Shown: in pieces, positions 3,075 to 60,862 of the stretch
Layout: every line of letters starts with the position of its first letter
How positions within the stretch are numbered: the stretch's first letter is position 1
Assembly: GCF_003325755.1 (NCBI RefSeq)
Contig: NZ_QORI02000021.1
Coordinates: forward strand, 1 to 64,000
Direction: 5' to 3'
DNA from: Pseudomonas sp. SST3
GTDB taxonomy: Bacteria > Pseudomonadota > Gammaproteobacteria > Pseudomonadales > Pseudomonadaceae
DNA length: 64,000 nt
Program-made: the position numbers and the translations under genes
Notes under the pieces: model-generated
Database searches by the model: none
What the model saw: only the letters and a program-made list of their open reading frames with translations
Told to the model about the DNA's origin: nothing

Positions 3075-3539
3075 ATGATCCGAATCGAAAACATACTGAC
3101 CCCCGGACGTTCTCTGGTGAACGTACCGGGCGGCAGCAAGAAACGCGTCCTGGAACAGATCGCCAAAGTGCTCGGCCGAGACCTTCCAGACCTCGACTCC
3201 CAAGCCATCTTCGAAAGTTTCGTTGCTCGTGAGAAGCTCGGCTCTACCGGCTTCGGCAACGGAATTGCTATTCCTCATTGCCGGATGCCCGGCTGCACGT
3301 CACCGCTCAGCGCGGTGCTGCGGCTCGATACACCAGTGGATTTCGATGCCATCGATGGTGCGCCGGTCGATCTGCTGTTCGTTCTGCTGGTGCCGGAAGC
3401 AGCGACCGACGAACACCTTGAACTGCTTCGGCAAATCGCCAGCATGCTGGACCGCGACGAGGTCCGCGAACGCCTCCGCCAGGCCAATACGGGACCGGAC
3501 CTGTATCAGGCCGTCGTCGATATTCAGAGCGGTCGCTAG
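3075..3539 (+). CDS. ptsN: Nitrogen-regulatory PTS protein EIIA-Ntr
   Basis: PtsN is the terminal phosphate acceptor of the nitrogen PTS (PtsP to PtsO to PtsN), a regulatory chain without a sugar permease that affects potassium transport, nitrogen responses and cell-envelope functions. The 154-residue length is normal. The phosphorylated histidine is His68 in the motif GNGIAIPHCRMPG. The stop codon TAG is part of a CTAG tetramer that is also the left edge of a decayed mobile-element remnant (3536-3603), so the reading frame ends exactly where the insertion begins. RapZ and ptsO follow on the same strand. Confidence 0.96.
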   Translation: MIRIENILTPGRSLVNVPGGSKKRVLEQIAKVLGRDLPDLDSQAIFESFVAREKLGSTGFGNGIAIPHCRMPGCTSPLSAVLRLDTPVDFDAIDGAPVDLLFVLLVPEAATDEHLELLRQIASMLDRDEVRERLRQANTGPDLYQAVVDIQSGR

Positions 3540-3603
3540 GGCCTGTTGACGTTTCGCTGTGGCCGCAACCGAGGCCCTGACGAAACGGCATTCATCGCCC
3601 TAC
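3536..3603. mobile_element. Decayed MITE-like remnant at the ptsN stop codon
   Basis: Starting with the CTAG that holds the ptsN stop, about 31 bases (3536-3566) match the inward-reading right end of the 270-bp element at 26398-26667 with only a few differences, sharing CTAGGG, CTGTTG and CGTTTCGCTG. The right side (3581-3603) still carries CGAAACGGC and ends in CCCTAC, a one-base change from the expected CCCTAG. The middle is almost gone, leaving about 68 bases. It fills much of the ptsN-rapZ gap and has no coding capacity. Confidence 0.6.
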
Positions 3604-3707
3604 GCTGAGTGAGGAAGAGACGTGCCCAAAACCTGCAAACTCCCACCCTACCCGCGCTGCGTACAGCATGGCTGTCAGGCCCGCGTCCTGTCGAACGTGA
3701 CACTGCA

Positions 3708-4565
3708 ATGCGCCTGATCATCGTCAGCGGCCGCTCCGGTTCCGGCAAGAGCACGGCGCTCGATGTGCTCGAGGACAACGGCTTCTACTGTATCGACAAC
3801 CTGCCCGCCGGCCTTCTACCGGAGCTGGCAGAACGGGCGCTGCTGCACACGGAGCTGCTGCAGCCGCAGGTCGCAGTCTCTATCGATGCGCGCAATCTAC
3901 CCAGCCAACTGAAGCGCTTCCCCGAACTGCTCGAGGATGTCCGCGCCCGCTATATCCAGTGCGATGTGCTGTACCTCGACGCCGCAGACGAGACGCTACT
4001 CAAGCGCTTCTCCGAAACGCGCAGGCGTCATCCGCTGACCAACCAGAACCGCTCCCTGGCCGAAGCCATCCGTGACGAAGAGCTGCTGCTGGCCCCCATC
4101 ATTGATCACGCCGATCTGAAGATCGACACGACGCACCTCAACCTGTATCAACTGCGCGACACGCTGAAGCTGCGCCTGCTCAACAAGCCTGAACCGGGCA
4201 CGGCGTTTCTCTTCGAGTCATTTGGCTTCAAGCGCGGCATGCCGGTTGACGCCGACCTGGTGTTTGATGTCCGTTGTCTGCCCAACCCGTACTGGAAGGC
4301 AGATCTGCGCGATTTTTCGGGACTGGACCAGCCCGTCATCGATTACCTGGCCACGCAAGCAGATGTTGAAGAGATGTTTCAGGACATCCTTGCCTATCTG
4401 AGCAAATGGCTTCCGCGCTTCGCGGCCAGCAATCGCGCCTATGTCACTGTCGCTATCGGCTGCACAGGTGGGCATCACCGCTCGGTCTACCTGGCTGAGC
4501 GGCTCGGGCAGGCACTGCGCGAACCCCTGAAGAACGTTCAGGTCCGTCACCGCGACCTGGCTTAG
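3708..4565 (+). CDS. rapZ: RNase adapter protein RapZ (P-loop NTPase family)
   Basis: RapZ is an RNA-binding P-loop protein that, in enterobacteria, guides RNase E to the small RNA GlmZ and so controls glucosamine-6-phosphate synthesis. The role in pseudomonads is less clear. The start at 3708 gives 285 residues, the normal size, and puts the Walker A motif GRSGSGKS at residues 8-15. The C-terminal domain has the conserved [17 protein letters not shown] segment used for RNA and metabolite binding. A longer in-frame start exists at 3609 but runs through non-conserved sequence. PtsO begins 8 bases after the stop. Confidence 0.95.
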
Positions 4566-24902: not shown

Positions 24903-25259
24903 TTAACGGGCTTTCTTCTGCTGACGGAAGAAAGCCAGGTCTGTCTGCAAGCGCTCGATCTGCGCGGACAACTTGGCGATACGCCCGAGCAGTTGCTCTT
25001 GTGTCGCCTCGGCTTCCTGATGTTGAAGGGCACCCTGTGCAAGAGCGTCCTGAAGCGATTGATTCTCCGCTGTCAGTGCGATGAGCTGCTGCTCATGGGC
25101 GGCACCCTCGCTGATACGCAGATTCACCAACGCGGCGATCATGCAGAGCATGACCAATACTACCCAGAGCCACGAGCGCGACCGGCGCGTGATCAGCAGC
25201 CGATGCTCGGCACGAACCAGCTGGCGCGTATCGGGCGTTCTAGTCTTCAGCCAGAGCAT
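24903..25259 (-). CDS. Small membrane protein with a periplasmic coiled coil
   Basis: I do not recognise a named family. The 118-residue product has a basic N-terminus (TRRSRS), one membrane helix at about 31-51 (WLWVVLVMLCMIAALVNL), and a helical heptad-like region to the end (ALTAENQSLQDALAQGALQ, LLGRIAKLSAQIERLQTDL). The start at 25259 is inside the end of the M23 gene, a 20-base overlap, so the two are coupled. The bactofilin starts 17 bases after its stop. A role as a linker between the cytoplasmic bactofilin polymer and the periplasmic peptidase is an inference from order and topology. Confidence 0.75.
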   Translation of the reverse strand: MLWLKTRTPDTRQLVRAEHRLLITRRSRSWLWVVLVMLCMIAALVNLRISEGAAHEQQLIALTAENQSLQDALAQGALQHQEAEATQEQLLGRIAKLSAQIERLQTDLAFFRQQKKAR

Positions 25260-26226
25260 TGCTGACCCGCTCCAGATCACCCAGGGCAAGGAAACGCTGA
25301 GGGTCGACGAATCGCCCCTTATGCAGCACCTCGAAATGGAGGTGCGGGCCAGTGGAGCGCCCGGTCGATCCGACGGCTCCAATCAGCTGCTCTGGCGTGA
25401 CCACATCGCCTCTCTTAACGTGCATCCGTGACAGGTGCGCATAGCGAGTCACGAGCTGATTGCCGTGATCGATTATCACCAGCTTGCCGTATCCGCCACG
25501 AGTGCCGGCGAAGCGAACCCGACCGCCTGCGGCGGCGAGCACATCCGAGCCGGAGCGCAACGAAAAATCCACTCCCGAATGGAAAGCGGCCTGCTTTTTG
25601 AACGGATCGATGCGGTTGCCATAGGCCGAACCCAGGCGCGCCTCACCGACAGGCCGGCGGGACGGAATGGCCATCAGCGCCGCATTGCGTTCTGCTACGC
25701 GCTGCATCATTTCATCCAGCACAGCACGCATGCAGCTGGCGGACGTCTCGGTGCGCTCCAGATCGGCCAGCGATACGTTGTCCGCTGTCAGCAACAGCTC
25801 ACCCGAGCAGCCTTGCGGTGGTAGCAAGATACCGCCCTGCCCTGCGCTGCCACTGTGCGAATCCTTCGGCAGCAACAGTGGCAACAGGCTTGGATCAAGA
25901 GCCGAAAGTTGTGCGCTCAGAACGCGCTGCTCGCCCATCATCTGCTGCAGTGCGAGCACATCGGACTCCAGCGACTTTAGCCGTCCCACAACTTTGCCGA
26001 CACGCGCAATGGCGAAACGTCCTTCGTTGCCAAGGCCCGGCTCTTCCAGGCTTACAGGTTGCTGTACAGCATCTAGATCCCGCCCGATCCAAACGCCACC
26101 GGCGAAGGTGCCGAGATTCAGCAGCAGTAGCAACGCCAGACCGGGACCGAGCTTGCGGCGTAGGTTGACGACGCGATTGGCATCGCGGGTCAGCGAACGG
26201 CTCGAAGGTGTAAATAGCGACATCAT
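25240..26226 (-). CDS. M23 family metallopeptidase, membrane-anchored
   Basis: M23 (LytM/lysostaphin-type) zinc peptidases cleave peptidoglycan cross-links. This roughly 328-residue protein has a membrane helix (GPGLALLLLLNLGTFAGGVW), a helical periplasmic linker, and a C-terminal peptidase domain. The zinc ligands are intact: FHSGVDFSLRSG (HxxxD) and GPHLHFEVLH (HxH), so it should be active. The start is one of two adjacent ATGs (26226 or 26223) after GGGAA. It is first in the group with the coiled-coil protein and bactofilin. Confidence 0.92.
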   Translation of the reverse strand: MMSLFTPSSRSLTRDANRVVNLRRKLGPGLALLLLLNLGTFAGGVWIGRDLDAVQQPVSLEEPGLGNEGRFAIARVGKVVGRLKSLESDVLALQQMMGEQRVLSAQLSALDPSLLPLLLPKDSHSGSAGQGGILLPPQGCSGELLLTADNVSLADLERTETSASCMRAVLDEMMQRVAERNAALMAIPSRRPVGEARLGSAYGNRIDPFKKQAAFHSGVDFSLRSGSDVLAAAGGRVRFAGTRGGYGKLVIIDHGNQLVTRYAHLSRMHVKRGDVVTPEQLIGAVGSTGRSTGPHLHFEVLHKGRFVDPQRFLALGDLERVSNALAED

Positions 26227-26397
26227 GCGATTCCCAGAACTCAAGGCGGCCGGCCCCTGATTGGTAAGCCGTCGATTGTCCGAGGCAATGTGACGGAAAC
26301 GGGTATTTTTTTCTGAGGCCTATTGATGATTACGACCGCCCTAGGCTTTTCTTAAGCTGCAAAAGCCGACACCGATCACAACAACGACAGGCGGAGC

Positions 26398-26667
26398 CTA
26401 GGGTCTGTTCCCGTTTCGTCGCGGCCGCGACGGAGCCGGTTATTGCGCGAGACAAGGCACGAGTCGCGCAGTTTGGTCGTTCCAAATAAGCGACGAGAAA
26501 CGCCGTATCGCACAAAAACCGGCCCGTCCCTACGGGTTGCGCGGCAAATCTCGCCATGCGGCGTTGCGGGACTTGGTAAGGGAGCGACCATTACCTGCGT
26601 CCCGCGCCTTGCCTGGCGAGATTTGGCGCAGCAACGCGGTCCGCAGCGAAACGGCAACAGACCCTAG
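26398..26667. mobile_element. MITE-like element, 270 bp, flanked by CTAG
   Basis: CTAGGGTCTGTT at 26398 and AACAGACCCTAG ending at 26667 open terminal inverted repeats that match at 20 of 21 positions (the exception is C versus G at the 13th base). If CTAG is the target duplication, the repeats themselves begin GGTCTGTT. Inside is another inverted pair (26541-26556 with 26614-26629, 15 of 16). I find no reading frame with transposase features. The right CTAG contains the stop codon of the AEC gene read on the minus strand. CTAG-type target sites and GG(T/C)CTGTTG-type ends resemble IS5-family elements, which suggests the mobilising transposase. A decayed relative is at 3536-3603. Confidence 0.75.
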
Positions 26668-27605
26668 ATCCACCCCAGCCAGCCGAGCAGGAACAGCCCG
26701 GCATTGATGCTCACCGCGGCCATGAGTGTGGTGATCACGATGATGACCGCGGCCAATTGATGATTGGCGTTGACCGCCCGCGCCATGACGAAGCTGGCCG
26801 AGGCCGTCGGGCTGGCGAAATACAGAAACAGGATGCCCAGCTCCGCGCCGCGGAACCCAAAGAGCCCGGCGCCAAGCGTGGCGAGCGCGGGGAGCCAAAC
26901 CATTTTCATCAGGCTTGAGCTCATCGCCATACGGCTGCTCTCGCGCAGAACCGAAAGTGACAGCGTGCCGCCGATGCAGATAAGCGCCAACGGCAGGGTC
27001 ATCTGGGCGAAGTACTGGCCGGAGGTCATTAGCCAGTCCGGCAACGGAATCTGCCAATAGGCAACGGGAACGGCAGCCGTCACGCCGATCACCAACGGGT
27101 TACGCAGGATGCTGAACAGAATGGCGCCAGCACTGACACGTCCGTCCGGGCTGTAGATGGCCAGAATCAGCGCCGACAGGCTGTTGTAGACGAGTATCAC
27201 CACACCGGCCAGAACGCCGCCCAGCGACAAGCCATAGTCACCATAGAGGCTGGTTGCGAGCGCCAGGCCGACGATGCCGTTGTTGCCGCGAAACGCGCCT
27301 TGGATATAGACGCCGCGATCCGCCTGCGGGCAGCGCCAAAGTGCCCAAACCCACGCCAGAAGAAAGGTCGCCACGGTGGCCATGACGTAGTAGAACAACA
27401 GGCCCGGCTGCAGCGCAGCGTCCAGGTCGGCATTGATAATCGAGAGAAACAACAGGGTCGGCATCGTGGCCTTGAACACCAGAGCCGATGCGGTCTGGAC
27501 GAACGCCGCATCGATCCAGCCCAGCCGCTTGAGCGCAACACCGATGAACAACATGATGAAGACCGGAGCGGTGATGCCCAGGGTCTGAATGGCAACGGAA
27601 AGCAT
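26664..27605 (-). CDS. AEC family transporter (auxin efflux carrier-like permease)
   Basis: The 313-residue protein has about ten membrane segments in two halves and resembles the AEC family, whose bacterial members export or import small organic acids such as malonate (MdcF-like). Recognisable segments are APVFIMLFIGVALKRLGWID near the start and FRGNNGIVGLALATSLYGD in the middle. The substrate is unknown. Its stop TAG falls inside the CTAG that edges the 270-bp MITE-like element. Upstream, between its start and roxR, lies a six-copy GCTGGAA array that would sit in its leader or promoter region. Confidence 0.85.
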   Translation of the reverse strand: MLSVAIQTLGITAPVFIMLFIGVALKRLGWIDAAFVQTASALVFKATMPTLLFLSIINADLDAALQPGLLFYYVMATVATFLLAWVWALWRCPQADRGVYIQGAFRGNNGIVGLALATSLYGDYGLSLGGVLAGVVILVYNSLSALILAIYSPDGRVSAGAILFSILRNPLVIGVTAAVPVAYWQIPLPDWLMTSGQYFAQMTLPLALICIGGTLSLSVLRESSRMAMSSSLMKMVWLPALATLGAGLFGFRGAELGILFLYFASPTASASFVMARAVNANHQLAAVIIVITTLMAAVSINAGLFLLGWLGWI

Positions 27606-59482: not shown

Positions 59483-60862
59483 ATGTCACGGCTACTGCTT
59501 GCCTGGCGGCACGCCCCCACCCATAAACGGGTCTGGGGGCTCGCTGCACCAATGATCCTGTCCAATCTGTCCGTGCCGCTGGTGGCCCTGGTCGACAGTG
59601 CCGTGATCGGTCATCTGCCGCATGCCCATCAACTGGCCTCGGTCGCAGTGGGCGGCAGCCTTTACACCCTGCTGGTCTGGGTCATGGGCTTTCTACGCAT
59701 GGGCACCACCGGTTTCGCGGCGCAAGCGGCCGGACGCGAAGATGGCGGTGCGCTGCGCCAGGTGCTGCTACAAGGGTTGCTGTTGGCAATTGCCTTCGCC
59801 CTGTTGCTGAGCCTCGTCGCATTGCCGCTCAAGGGCTACGCGTTGCAGCTGATGCAACCCTCGGCGGAACTCGATGCGCTCACCGAAAGCTATTTCCATA
59901 CGCGCCTGTTCGGCCTGCCCGCCGCCCTGGCGAATCTAGCCCTGATCGGCTGGTTTCTAGGGACCCAAAACGCTCGTGCACCGCTGGCCATTCTGCTCAC
60001 CACTAACCTGACCAACGTCGCGCTGGACCTGTGGTTCGTCATCGGCCTGGACTGGGGGGTGGCCGGTGCCGCGCGCGCTTCGGTGATTGCCGAATGGAGC
60101 GGCGTGCTCGTCGGCCTGACGCTGACCCGCGGAGCCCTGTTGCGCTATTCCGGCCGACTGGATCGCCATGCGATGCGCCGTTGGGCCAACTGGAAGCCGT
60201 TGATGTCGGTCAATCGGGATATTTTCCTGCGCTCGCTGGCGCTGCAGTTGGTGTTTTTCCTGGTCACGGTGCAAGGCACGCGGCTGGGTGATGCCACGGT
60301 CGCTGCCAACGCGCTGCTGCTCAATGGCCTGATGCTCACCGCCCACGCACTGGATGGGCTGGCTCATGCGGTGGAAGCCTTGAGCGGTCATGCCATCGGT
60401 GCGCAGAACCGCACCGAGCTGCGCCGGATCCTGACAGTCGCCGGAGGCTGGTCACTGCTCGCCAGCCTAGCCTTCGGCCTGTTCTTCCTACTCGGCGGCG
60501 AGCTGTTCATCAGCCTTCAAACCGACATCCCCGCAGTACGCGAAACGGCCATCGCCTACCTGCCTTATCTGGCGGCGCTGCCGCTGGTGGCCGTCTGGAG
60601 CTATCTGCTCGATGGCCTGTTCATCGGGGCCACCCGCGCGCGGGAAATGCGCAACGCGATGCTGCTGGCGGTGCTGATTTCGCTACCATTGGGCTGGCTG
60701 CTGCGCGCATTGGGCAATCACGGATTGTGGTTGGCCTTTCTCGCCTTCATGCTGCTGCGGGGTATCTGTCTCGGCAGCATCGCCCGACGCCTGCAGCACC
60801 AGCAGCAATGGTTCCGCTCGACCCATGCCGCCGCCGTAGCAACCCCACCGAAAGGACACTGA
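59483..60862 (+). CDS. MATE family efflux transporter (DinF-like)
   Basis: The 459-residue protein has about 12 membrane helices in two related halves. GLAAPMILSNLSVPLVALVD at the N-terminus and GHAIGAQNRTELRRI in the second half are typical of the DinF branch of the MATE family, Na+ or H+ coupled exporters of cationic compounds. TTGGAG precedes the start at 59483. The DUF2214 gene begins two bases after the stop, so the two are transcribed together. Confidence 0.9.
   Translation: MSRLLLAWRHAPTHKRVWGLAAPMILSNLSVPLVALVDSAVIGHLPHAHQLASVAVGGSLYTLLVWVMGFLRMGTTGFAAQAAGREDGGALRQVLLQGLLLAIAFALLLSLVALPLKGYALQLMQPSAELDALTESYFHTRLFGLPAALANLALIGWFLGTQNARAPLAILLTTNLTNVALDLWFVIGLDWGVAGAARASVIAEWSGVLVGLTLTRGALLRYSGRLDRHAMRRWANWKPLMSVNRDIFLRSLALQLVFFLVTVQGTRLGDATVAANALLLNGLMLTAHALDGLAHAVEALSGHAIGAQNRTELRRILTVAGGWSLLASLAFGLFFLLGGELFISLQTDIPAVRETAIAYLPYLAALPLVAVWSYLLDGLFIGATRAREMRNAMLLAVLISLPLGWLLRALGNHGLWLAFLAFMLLRGICLGSIARRLQHQQQWFRSTHAAAVATPPKGH

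Follow-up and report, generated by a model that had tools for sequence, protein, structure and literature searches.

The window analysed here, a stretch of 64,000 nucleotides of Pseudomonas sp. SST3, belongs by sequence to the Pseudomonas stutzeri group (Stutzerimonas). It carries on the minus strand a gene for an AEC-type transporter (26664..27605; PF03547, E 1.5e-18), the closest relatives of which are proteins from Pseudomonas sp. Q2-TVG4-2 (96% identity) and from S. stutzeri and S. zhaodongensis (90%), and the next gene downstream on the same strand encodes an M23 peptidase (25240..26244; PF01551, E 3e-34). At the 3' end of the AEC gene, the frame of which is unchanged, lies a transposase-free mobile element, GGGTCTGTT...AACAGACCC, of 264 bp (26401..26664), delimited from 66 copies and their flanks. 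CTAG stands at both of its edges (26398-26401 and 26664-26667), and the terminal inverted repeats, each taken together with its outer CTA, occupy 26398..26424 (plus strand, subtype TTCCCG) and 26641..26667 (minus strand, subtype TTGCCG), so that the two ends of this copy are of mixed subtype. The two repeats are identical at 24 of 27 positions; with CTAG counted in, 20 of their first 21 bases match, which bears out the near-perfect, CTAG-bounded repeats of the original prediction; the absence of a transposase frame, likewise claimed, agrees with the two short internal frames (74 and 93 aa), neither of which has a match in Pfam.

Duplicated TA dinucleotides are found at 26399..26400 and 26665..26666, and the right copy together with the terminal base of the element at 26664 constitutes the stop codon TAG of the minus-strand AEC gene; as predicted, the right-hand CTAG thus contains the stop. 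The duplication of 2 bp is deduced from the family, given that 2 and 4 bp are indistinguishable at the AEC site. Between 26200 and 26800 no promoters were found; terminator-like sites number three against 0.6 expected, each of them on the minus strand and thus in the sense of the AEC gene. A hairpin of 264 nt placed after the AEC stop might end or protect the transcript.

Empty Sites and Target Duplication

For the AEC locus we kept 80 of 126 related loci, including one (L042) with just 94 bases past the gene. A covariance model search found the element at the AEC stop in none of the 80; two of them (L015 and L070) contain full-size elements elsewhere in the locus, and L088 has one weak 64-bp match away from the AEC stop. 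Clean empty sites with a single TAG, which the prediction had proposed to look for in relatives, are seen in S. stutzeri 28a39 (L019) and SD25545 (L043), and both align with the window, with small differences only, once the element and one TA are omitted. The insertion has neither added nor removed a residue of the AEC protein, and the reading frame is the same as in these two strains, so that the stop was kept and the host gene left unharmed as anticipated. Of the 58 loci listed, 38 end the AEC gene with TAG, and a suitable target was therefore probably present before the insertion. That the element is instead an immobile palindromic repeat native to the AEC locus can practically be dismissed, given its absence from this site in 80 of 80 relatives, the empty sites and the copies at many other places; the two outcomes that would have spoken against mobility, no empty site and no other copies, are both contradicted. 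The element was inserted at the AEC locus.

Further copies, as the prediction had proposed to seek in related strains, proved to be frequent. By blastn, matches, some of them partial, were present in 22 of 38 genomes, all within the genus (22 of 25, as opposed to 0 of 13 outside); phages and E. coli genomes gave no blastn match, and plasmids gave matches in 5 of 72,556 records. We collected 66 full-length copies including that of the window, representing 63 sites (five copies share two sites), and 53 of them measure 269-273 bp counting the CTAG borders. At one locus (L160) two tandem copies have one CTAG in common.

The flanks of these copies require a revision of one claim, namely that CTAG is duplicated on insertion. 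TA is found on both flanks in 54 of the 66 copies, and the left and right 4-mers are equal in 28; among the 54 TA-flanked copies the bases immediately outside the two TA dinucleotides vary, and the element's own G (65/66) and C (66/66) at its edges hardly vary. In a later set of 120 copies, which included other genera and poorer-fitting ends, TA stands on both sides in 89. A further insertion site, at the end of a gene that we take to be proC, was compared across 29 loci (L381, at a contig end, was left out, and the site has matches in 56 genomes, many beyond these loci): 12 are empty, nine are filled and eight have a remnant of 41 extra bases. The empty allele reads CAATAAGG or close to it and the filled allele CAATA...CCCCTAAGG, which indicates a 2-bp duplication of TA; one filled copy (L380) has lost the left TA. 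CTAG as a 4-bp duplication is ruled out by the proC alleles and the number of equal 4-mers; it is the preferred target, and TA, usually within CTAG, constitutes the duplicated bases. The remnants at the proC site (L388-L395) retain the ends but are missing both arms, which looks like deletion at the base of a hairpin.

Insertion next to Stop Codons

The position at the AEC stop is shared in kind by other copies. Using a coding test that demanded an open frame of at least 80 codons in which G+C is highest at the third position and at least 0.72 there, 17 of the 66 copies adjoin a gene stop that consists of the target TA plus the following base, and two of the 17 do so at both edges; L102 and L104, both among the 17, are one site. 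Counted by flank (117 carry TA), stop phase occurs 19 times and other phases 12 times. As background we used 114 element-free CTAG sites, with near-identical contexts collapsed and the AEC stop excluded, among which 11 sites adjoin a stop and the flanks divide into 11 in stop phase and 60 in other phases. Gene-end copies are thus commoner than expected (Fisher 8e-6 for phase, 0.005 for sites). A first background (22 of 152 sites; flanks 22 against 74; Fisher 1.4e-4 for phase) was dropped as it included the AEC stop and its orthologues. CTAG is rare in the background, with 114 sites counted against ~1010 expected from length, a shortfall that is due in part to the collapsing and to end margins.

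At the proC site, empty loci (L383, L385) end the gene with TAA, and a filled locus (L102) and a remnant (L388) end it with TAG, the end of the protein being the same. We infer that selection against gene interruption would suffice for the stop-codon pattern. In L203 and L205 both edges test as gene stops, as between convergent genes. A relative on the P. aeruginosa plasmid NZ_CP017294.1 (L439) is flanked by two annotated genes with a common orientation, and its start is no more than a few bases away from the end of the first, which encodes an acyl-CoA dehydrogenase.

A Candidate Helper among IS5-Family Elements

Seven IS copies of 861-863 bp have ends like those of the element over ~19-24 bp, with CTAG on both sides. 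Three come from relatives (L220, L221, L230) and four from plasmids (L236-L239), and since the flanks of L236 and L237 are identical they amount to six insertion sites. C precedes and G follows TA at both borders in all copies, the search pattern having already required the rest of TAGGG. A 266-aa open frame is present in L230, L236, L237 and L238, and a transposase gene is annotated in L239; L220 and L221 are without a full-length frame, and four probe-matching loci (L219, L222, L231, L234) yielded no pair of ends. One of the plasmid records calls the IS ISPa67, and its transposase matches NF033580 with 277.9 bits (cut-off 110) as well as PF13340 and PF01609. The expectation of an IS5-type parent with matching ends is thereby supported for relatives and plasmids, for example by L230 with its 266-aa frame.

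The correspondence extends to the varieties of the ends. The IS end kinds TTGCC, TTCCC and TTGAC are also the main end kinds of the MITE, whose two ends are mostly of one kind (TCCCG/CGGGA in 14, TGCCG/CGGCA in 13, TGACG/CGTCA in 13 and TGCCA/CGGCA in nine of the 66 copies), and the left repeat of the window copy is identical to an IS end in L238 at 23 of 24 positions. Mixed ends occur in the window copy and in its 98.5% identical relative L095, which sit at different sites. We consider it probable, on the strength of these shared ends, that an ISPa67-type transposase moves the element. The body of the MITE has another source: a derivation from the IS interior was rejected, as blastn of the element against the seven IS copies returned the ends and, inside them, only matches with E 0.66 or worse.

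With a 64-aa transposase probe, matches were obtained in 20 of 56 genomes from the genus, 14 of the matches having at least 80% identity. It gave no match in G001, G014 and the element-rich G022 and G024, so that the helper may have been lost there or may be a different one. Ten of the 14 matches, from ten genomes (L210-L219), are one and the same truncated ISPa67-type transposase with a 163-aa frame, 98-100% identical over the probe, which is also found on a P. aeruginosa plasmid (hit H7); in one of the ten genomes it lies on the plasmid that was recovered as hit H6 too. The truncated transposase of L210-L219 and H7 may have travelled on a larger mobile unit.

A Two-Armed Fold with Covarying Pairs

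Folded as a single strand, the window element reaches -165.8 kcal/mol (z -11.6), and none of 200 shuffles is as good. Of the 53 copies that remained after a 95% redundancy filter, 52 (all but L070, of 299 bp) were aligned to derive the family structure. In it the terminal repeats pair together and enclose two hairpin arms, which we mapped by hand from the alignment columns to 26429..26528 (helix 3, with a conserved head at ~26453-26505) and 26536..26635 (helices 8 and 9) of the window. The second arm repeats the first in inverted orientation: the reverse complement of either resembles the other, and the head of the second is the inverted counterpart of the first; the head reads near ggCAAGGCgcgaggaGcg..gt.TggT.attcca.atgaacGacg.gcAACGCcGC, and the conserved heads stay unpaired. 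Pairing of the two hairpins head to head looks plausible by eye in some copies and not in others.

Double changes are found at 35 of the 82 pairs, 98.0% of cells are standard pairs, and none of 500 shuffles reaches the observed value on any of five measures; these counts were made on the same alignment from which the consensus structure was derived, which favours the structure. When the partner is slid by 1-3 columns, pairing falls to 36.5-42.6%.

Strong covariation of stems together with conserved unpaired heads is what a structured RNA would display, and the interior could accordingly encode such an RNA, either a small one or a 3' regulatory element, under selection for some role in the host cell, a reading to which the excess of gene-end copies would also lend itself. 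We regard this as improbable. In Rfam 15 no family was reached, the best being Collinsella-1 with 14.6 bits against a cut-off of 35. Among pairs predicted on both strands, G-U and A-C account for 71 and 91 of 4873 cells (60 and 47 of 4456 in a set of 49 elements), and G-U being about as frequent as A-C offers no hint that one particular strand is transcribed, although much of this represents decay in place, with little bearing on the mobile phase. Furthermore, pairing is not kept in resident copies, which speaks against a visible function of these copies.

This last point became apparent from a comparison of copies at the same and at different sites, in which compensated changes are those where both partners changed with Watson-Crick pairing before and after. 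Across 1323 different-site pairs, one-sided changes average 2.3-3.4 in every divergence class, and compensated changes climb with divergence from a mean of 1.2 to 12.8. The eight proC-site copies (L382, of 330 bp, was dropped) show pairwise up to 19 one-sided and at most one compensated change. Summed over the most divergent pair of each of seven sites, there are 37 one-sided changes against one compensated (4:0, 0:0, 12:1, 1:0, 14:0, 1:0 and 5:0 by site), a sum in which one site is without any pair change and two sites account for 26 of the 38. L380, the most decayed copy, has three pairs that are altered on both sides and have not regained pairing. In resident copies the palindrome decays roughly as would be expected of neutral DNA, and it is in moving elements that covariation arises or is maintained; as resident copies lose pairing one-sidedly and different-site copies compensate, renewal of the fold takes place in the lineage that moves.

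Two explanations of this renewal were weighed. Folded DNA could be needed for mobilisation, for instance as a cruciform or a single-strand hairpin that holds the ends together, which we think somewhat the better supposition. Alternatively, the palindrome could be kept by a mutational process in which one arm is copied onto the other through template switching or hairpin repair, with no selection on the fold. Such copying would fit the rarity of shared mismatches in the 70 both-strand pairs, where states common to at least three copies comprise 92 Watson-Crick, one G-U and two A-C, as well as the alignment by eye, in which adjacent bases often differ together between copies. Yet it is unseen in resident copies, which change one-sidedly, and it would have to act during movement. 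Since the window copy and L095 have the mixed ends in common at different sites, a mismatch can pass through a move; the conserved heads remain unpaired; and shared G-U (8) and A-C (11) states do occur in the one-strand-only pairs. Arm copying consequently seems to us unlikely, if still to be taken seriously, and we lean towards selection for a folded substrate over repair during movement.

Distribution of the Family

The covariance model built from the 52 copies has 271 positions and 0.59 bits per position, and its E-values are rough; the window copy scores 301.8 bits, a match by construction as this copy is in the model. Matches were obtained in 108 of 198 genomes of the Pseudomonadaceae (14 of 19 genera), in 99 of 369 genomes of the same class (78 of 271 genera) and in 88 of 398 genomes of the same phylum (47 of 212 genera), 51 of the 88 being outside the class and mostly from one family; some genomes are counted in more than one of these searches. 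Among the matches listed, most are full length, near 270 bp. Because a palindromic model may reward any palindrome, a sequence-only profile was run on 55 model-matching loci (29 from the class search, seven from the phylum search and 19 others, with L303 and L321 being one place). Of these, 54 matched with an E of at most 1e-3, though only weakly in the case of L317, L318 and L323, and L320 gave no match; the profile recovered all 13 loci from outside the class at E 7.5e-7 or better. Block-shuffled versions of the 55 loci gave no matches, and the 80 AEC loci gave just the two known elements.

For ten loci (L269-L271, L279, L284, L286, L288, L290, L293 and L297) the best profile match covers the core only, starting between profile positions 19 and 44 and stopping between 229 and 249; in L269, L279, L288 and L293 the ends seem to bear no relation to GGGTCTGTT. 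Judged by these matches, some relatives have the same core with other ends. In five distant genomes with other-ended elements (G511, G256, G403, G249 and G326) no IS with those ends was found; the search covered those ends that had no partner within the retrieved loci, and for G249 it drew on part of the matches. By eye, one frame in L353 resembles an IS5 transposase. Outside the class, L313-L316 are relatives of 179-220 bp with one arm seemingly reduced or missing.

Shorter forms are also seen. A second stretch of the window, 3536..3603, is probably a remnant of the same family with an internal deletion (covariance model 14.6 bits, E 0.0072, together with its end sequences); it begins exactly at the TAG stop of a 154-aa frame (3075-3539), presumably ptsN, and lies upstream of a frame at 3609-4565. 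A weak covariance model match at 60441-60520 (15 bits, E 0.0055) is possibly another. In G024 there are micro-palindromes of 56-62 bp (L165 1038-1099, L166 1018-1079, L167 999-1060 and L168 961-1016), consisting of little beyond the two ends with CTAG on both sides, which are either deletion remnants or independently mobile.

Discussion

The element is short (264 bp) and without a transposase gene, its ends are common over ~19-24 bp with an autonomous ISPa67-type IS, and it shows a target duplication, dispersed copies and empty sites. The predicted reading as a MITE, to which the other copies, the empty sites and the absent transposase all speak, is hence upheld. Since it encodes no transposase, it is not itself an IS5/ISPa67 insertion sequence: it has the end kinds, the length of terminal repeat and the CTAG borders of the ISPa67-type IS, but the latter has 861-863 bp and a transposase gene and matches the element inside the ends at chance level only. 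Two of its traits, the 264 bp and the IS5-type ends, do not suit the REP/BIME palindromes, which measure 20-40 bp. REP/BIME palindromes are linked to a RAYT transposase.

The kind of element is already known, in that MITEs with IS5-linked ends and CTAG targets exist. MITEPsy1 of P. syringae pv. phaseolicola, in the part of the report available, is an IS5-linked MITE with a CTAG or YTAA target that was trapped moving by its authors; it has 100 bp with the ends GGAAGGTCTGAAAAAGCC / GTATCCTCTGAAAAAGCC, a reported 4-nt duplication and a link to ISPsy2, and a 99-nt relative is mentioned in P. stutzeri ATCC 17588 (PMC3189936). By that partial account the likeness consists in the IS5 link and the CTAG target, and MITEPsy1 has other termini and is without the two-armed core; with 264 bp and ends of the GGGTCTGTT type, the element is not MITEPsy1. 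Excerpts on P. fluorescens SBW25 describe the MITE-like repeats R0 and R2, the ends of which equal those of a resident IS (PMC2718517); this resemblance to our element is one of description, not of sequence. An ISPa67-like IS5 element is listed in P. syringae pv. actinidiae in the section seen of a further source (PMC6053426). MITEs in general are characterised, in the available part of one account, as short and non-autonomous, with terminal repeats shared with an IS and able to fold (PMC10969869), to which the present family adds a nearly fixed size, a fold that covaries across several classes and varied termini on one core, for none of which that part has a counterpart. We found no description of the two-armed family in Rfam or in the open-licence literature as far as it was accessible, and reports on single genomes may exist elsewhere.

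Taken as a whole, the observations are probably explained by a MITE that is mobilised in trans by an ISPa67-type IS5-family transposase, has TA/CTAG as its target and possesses a two-armed folded body not derived from the IS. In this scenario the transposase would act on the matching ends. The element enters at TA, mostly inside CTAG, and duplicates the TA; at the AEC gene it used the CTAG that holds the stop codon, its terminal G restoring TAG. The body is a two-armed folded module of nearly fixed size with an origin separate from the IS interior, shared across Pseudomonadota and bearing other ends in some relatives, and the fold may aid movement, for instance by keeping the two termini in contact. 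More tentatively, and with rather less confidence than in the folded substrate itself, we suggest a phylum-wide class of non-autonomous elements in which one folded core has its ends swapped between transposase specificities, the DNA fold being selected or rebuilt by mobilisation and decaying in resident copies.

The duplication of TA, joined to the terminal G of the element, can produce a TAG stop at either edge and thereby provides a simple, gene-sparing route for mobile DNA. A MITE is commonly regarded as a leftover of an IS, its interior being arbitrary, whereas the interior described here is conserved as a folded module and occurs in many genera. Resident copies offer a built-in neutral control for this module, and the role of the hairpin in movement is directly testable.
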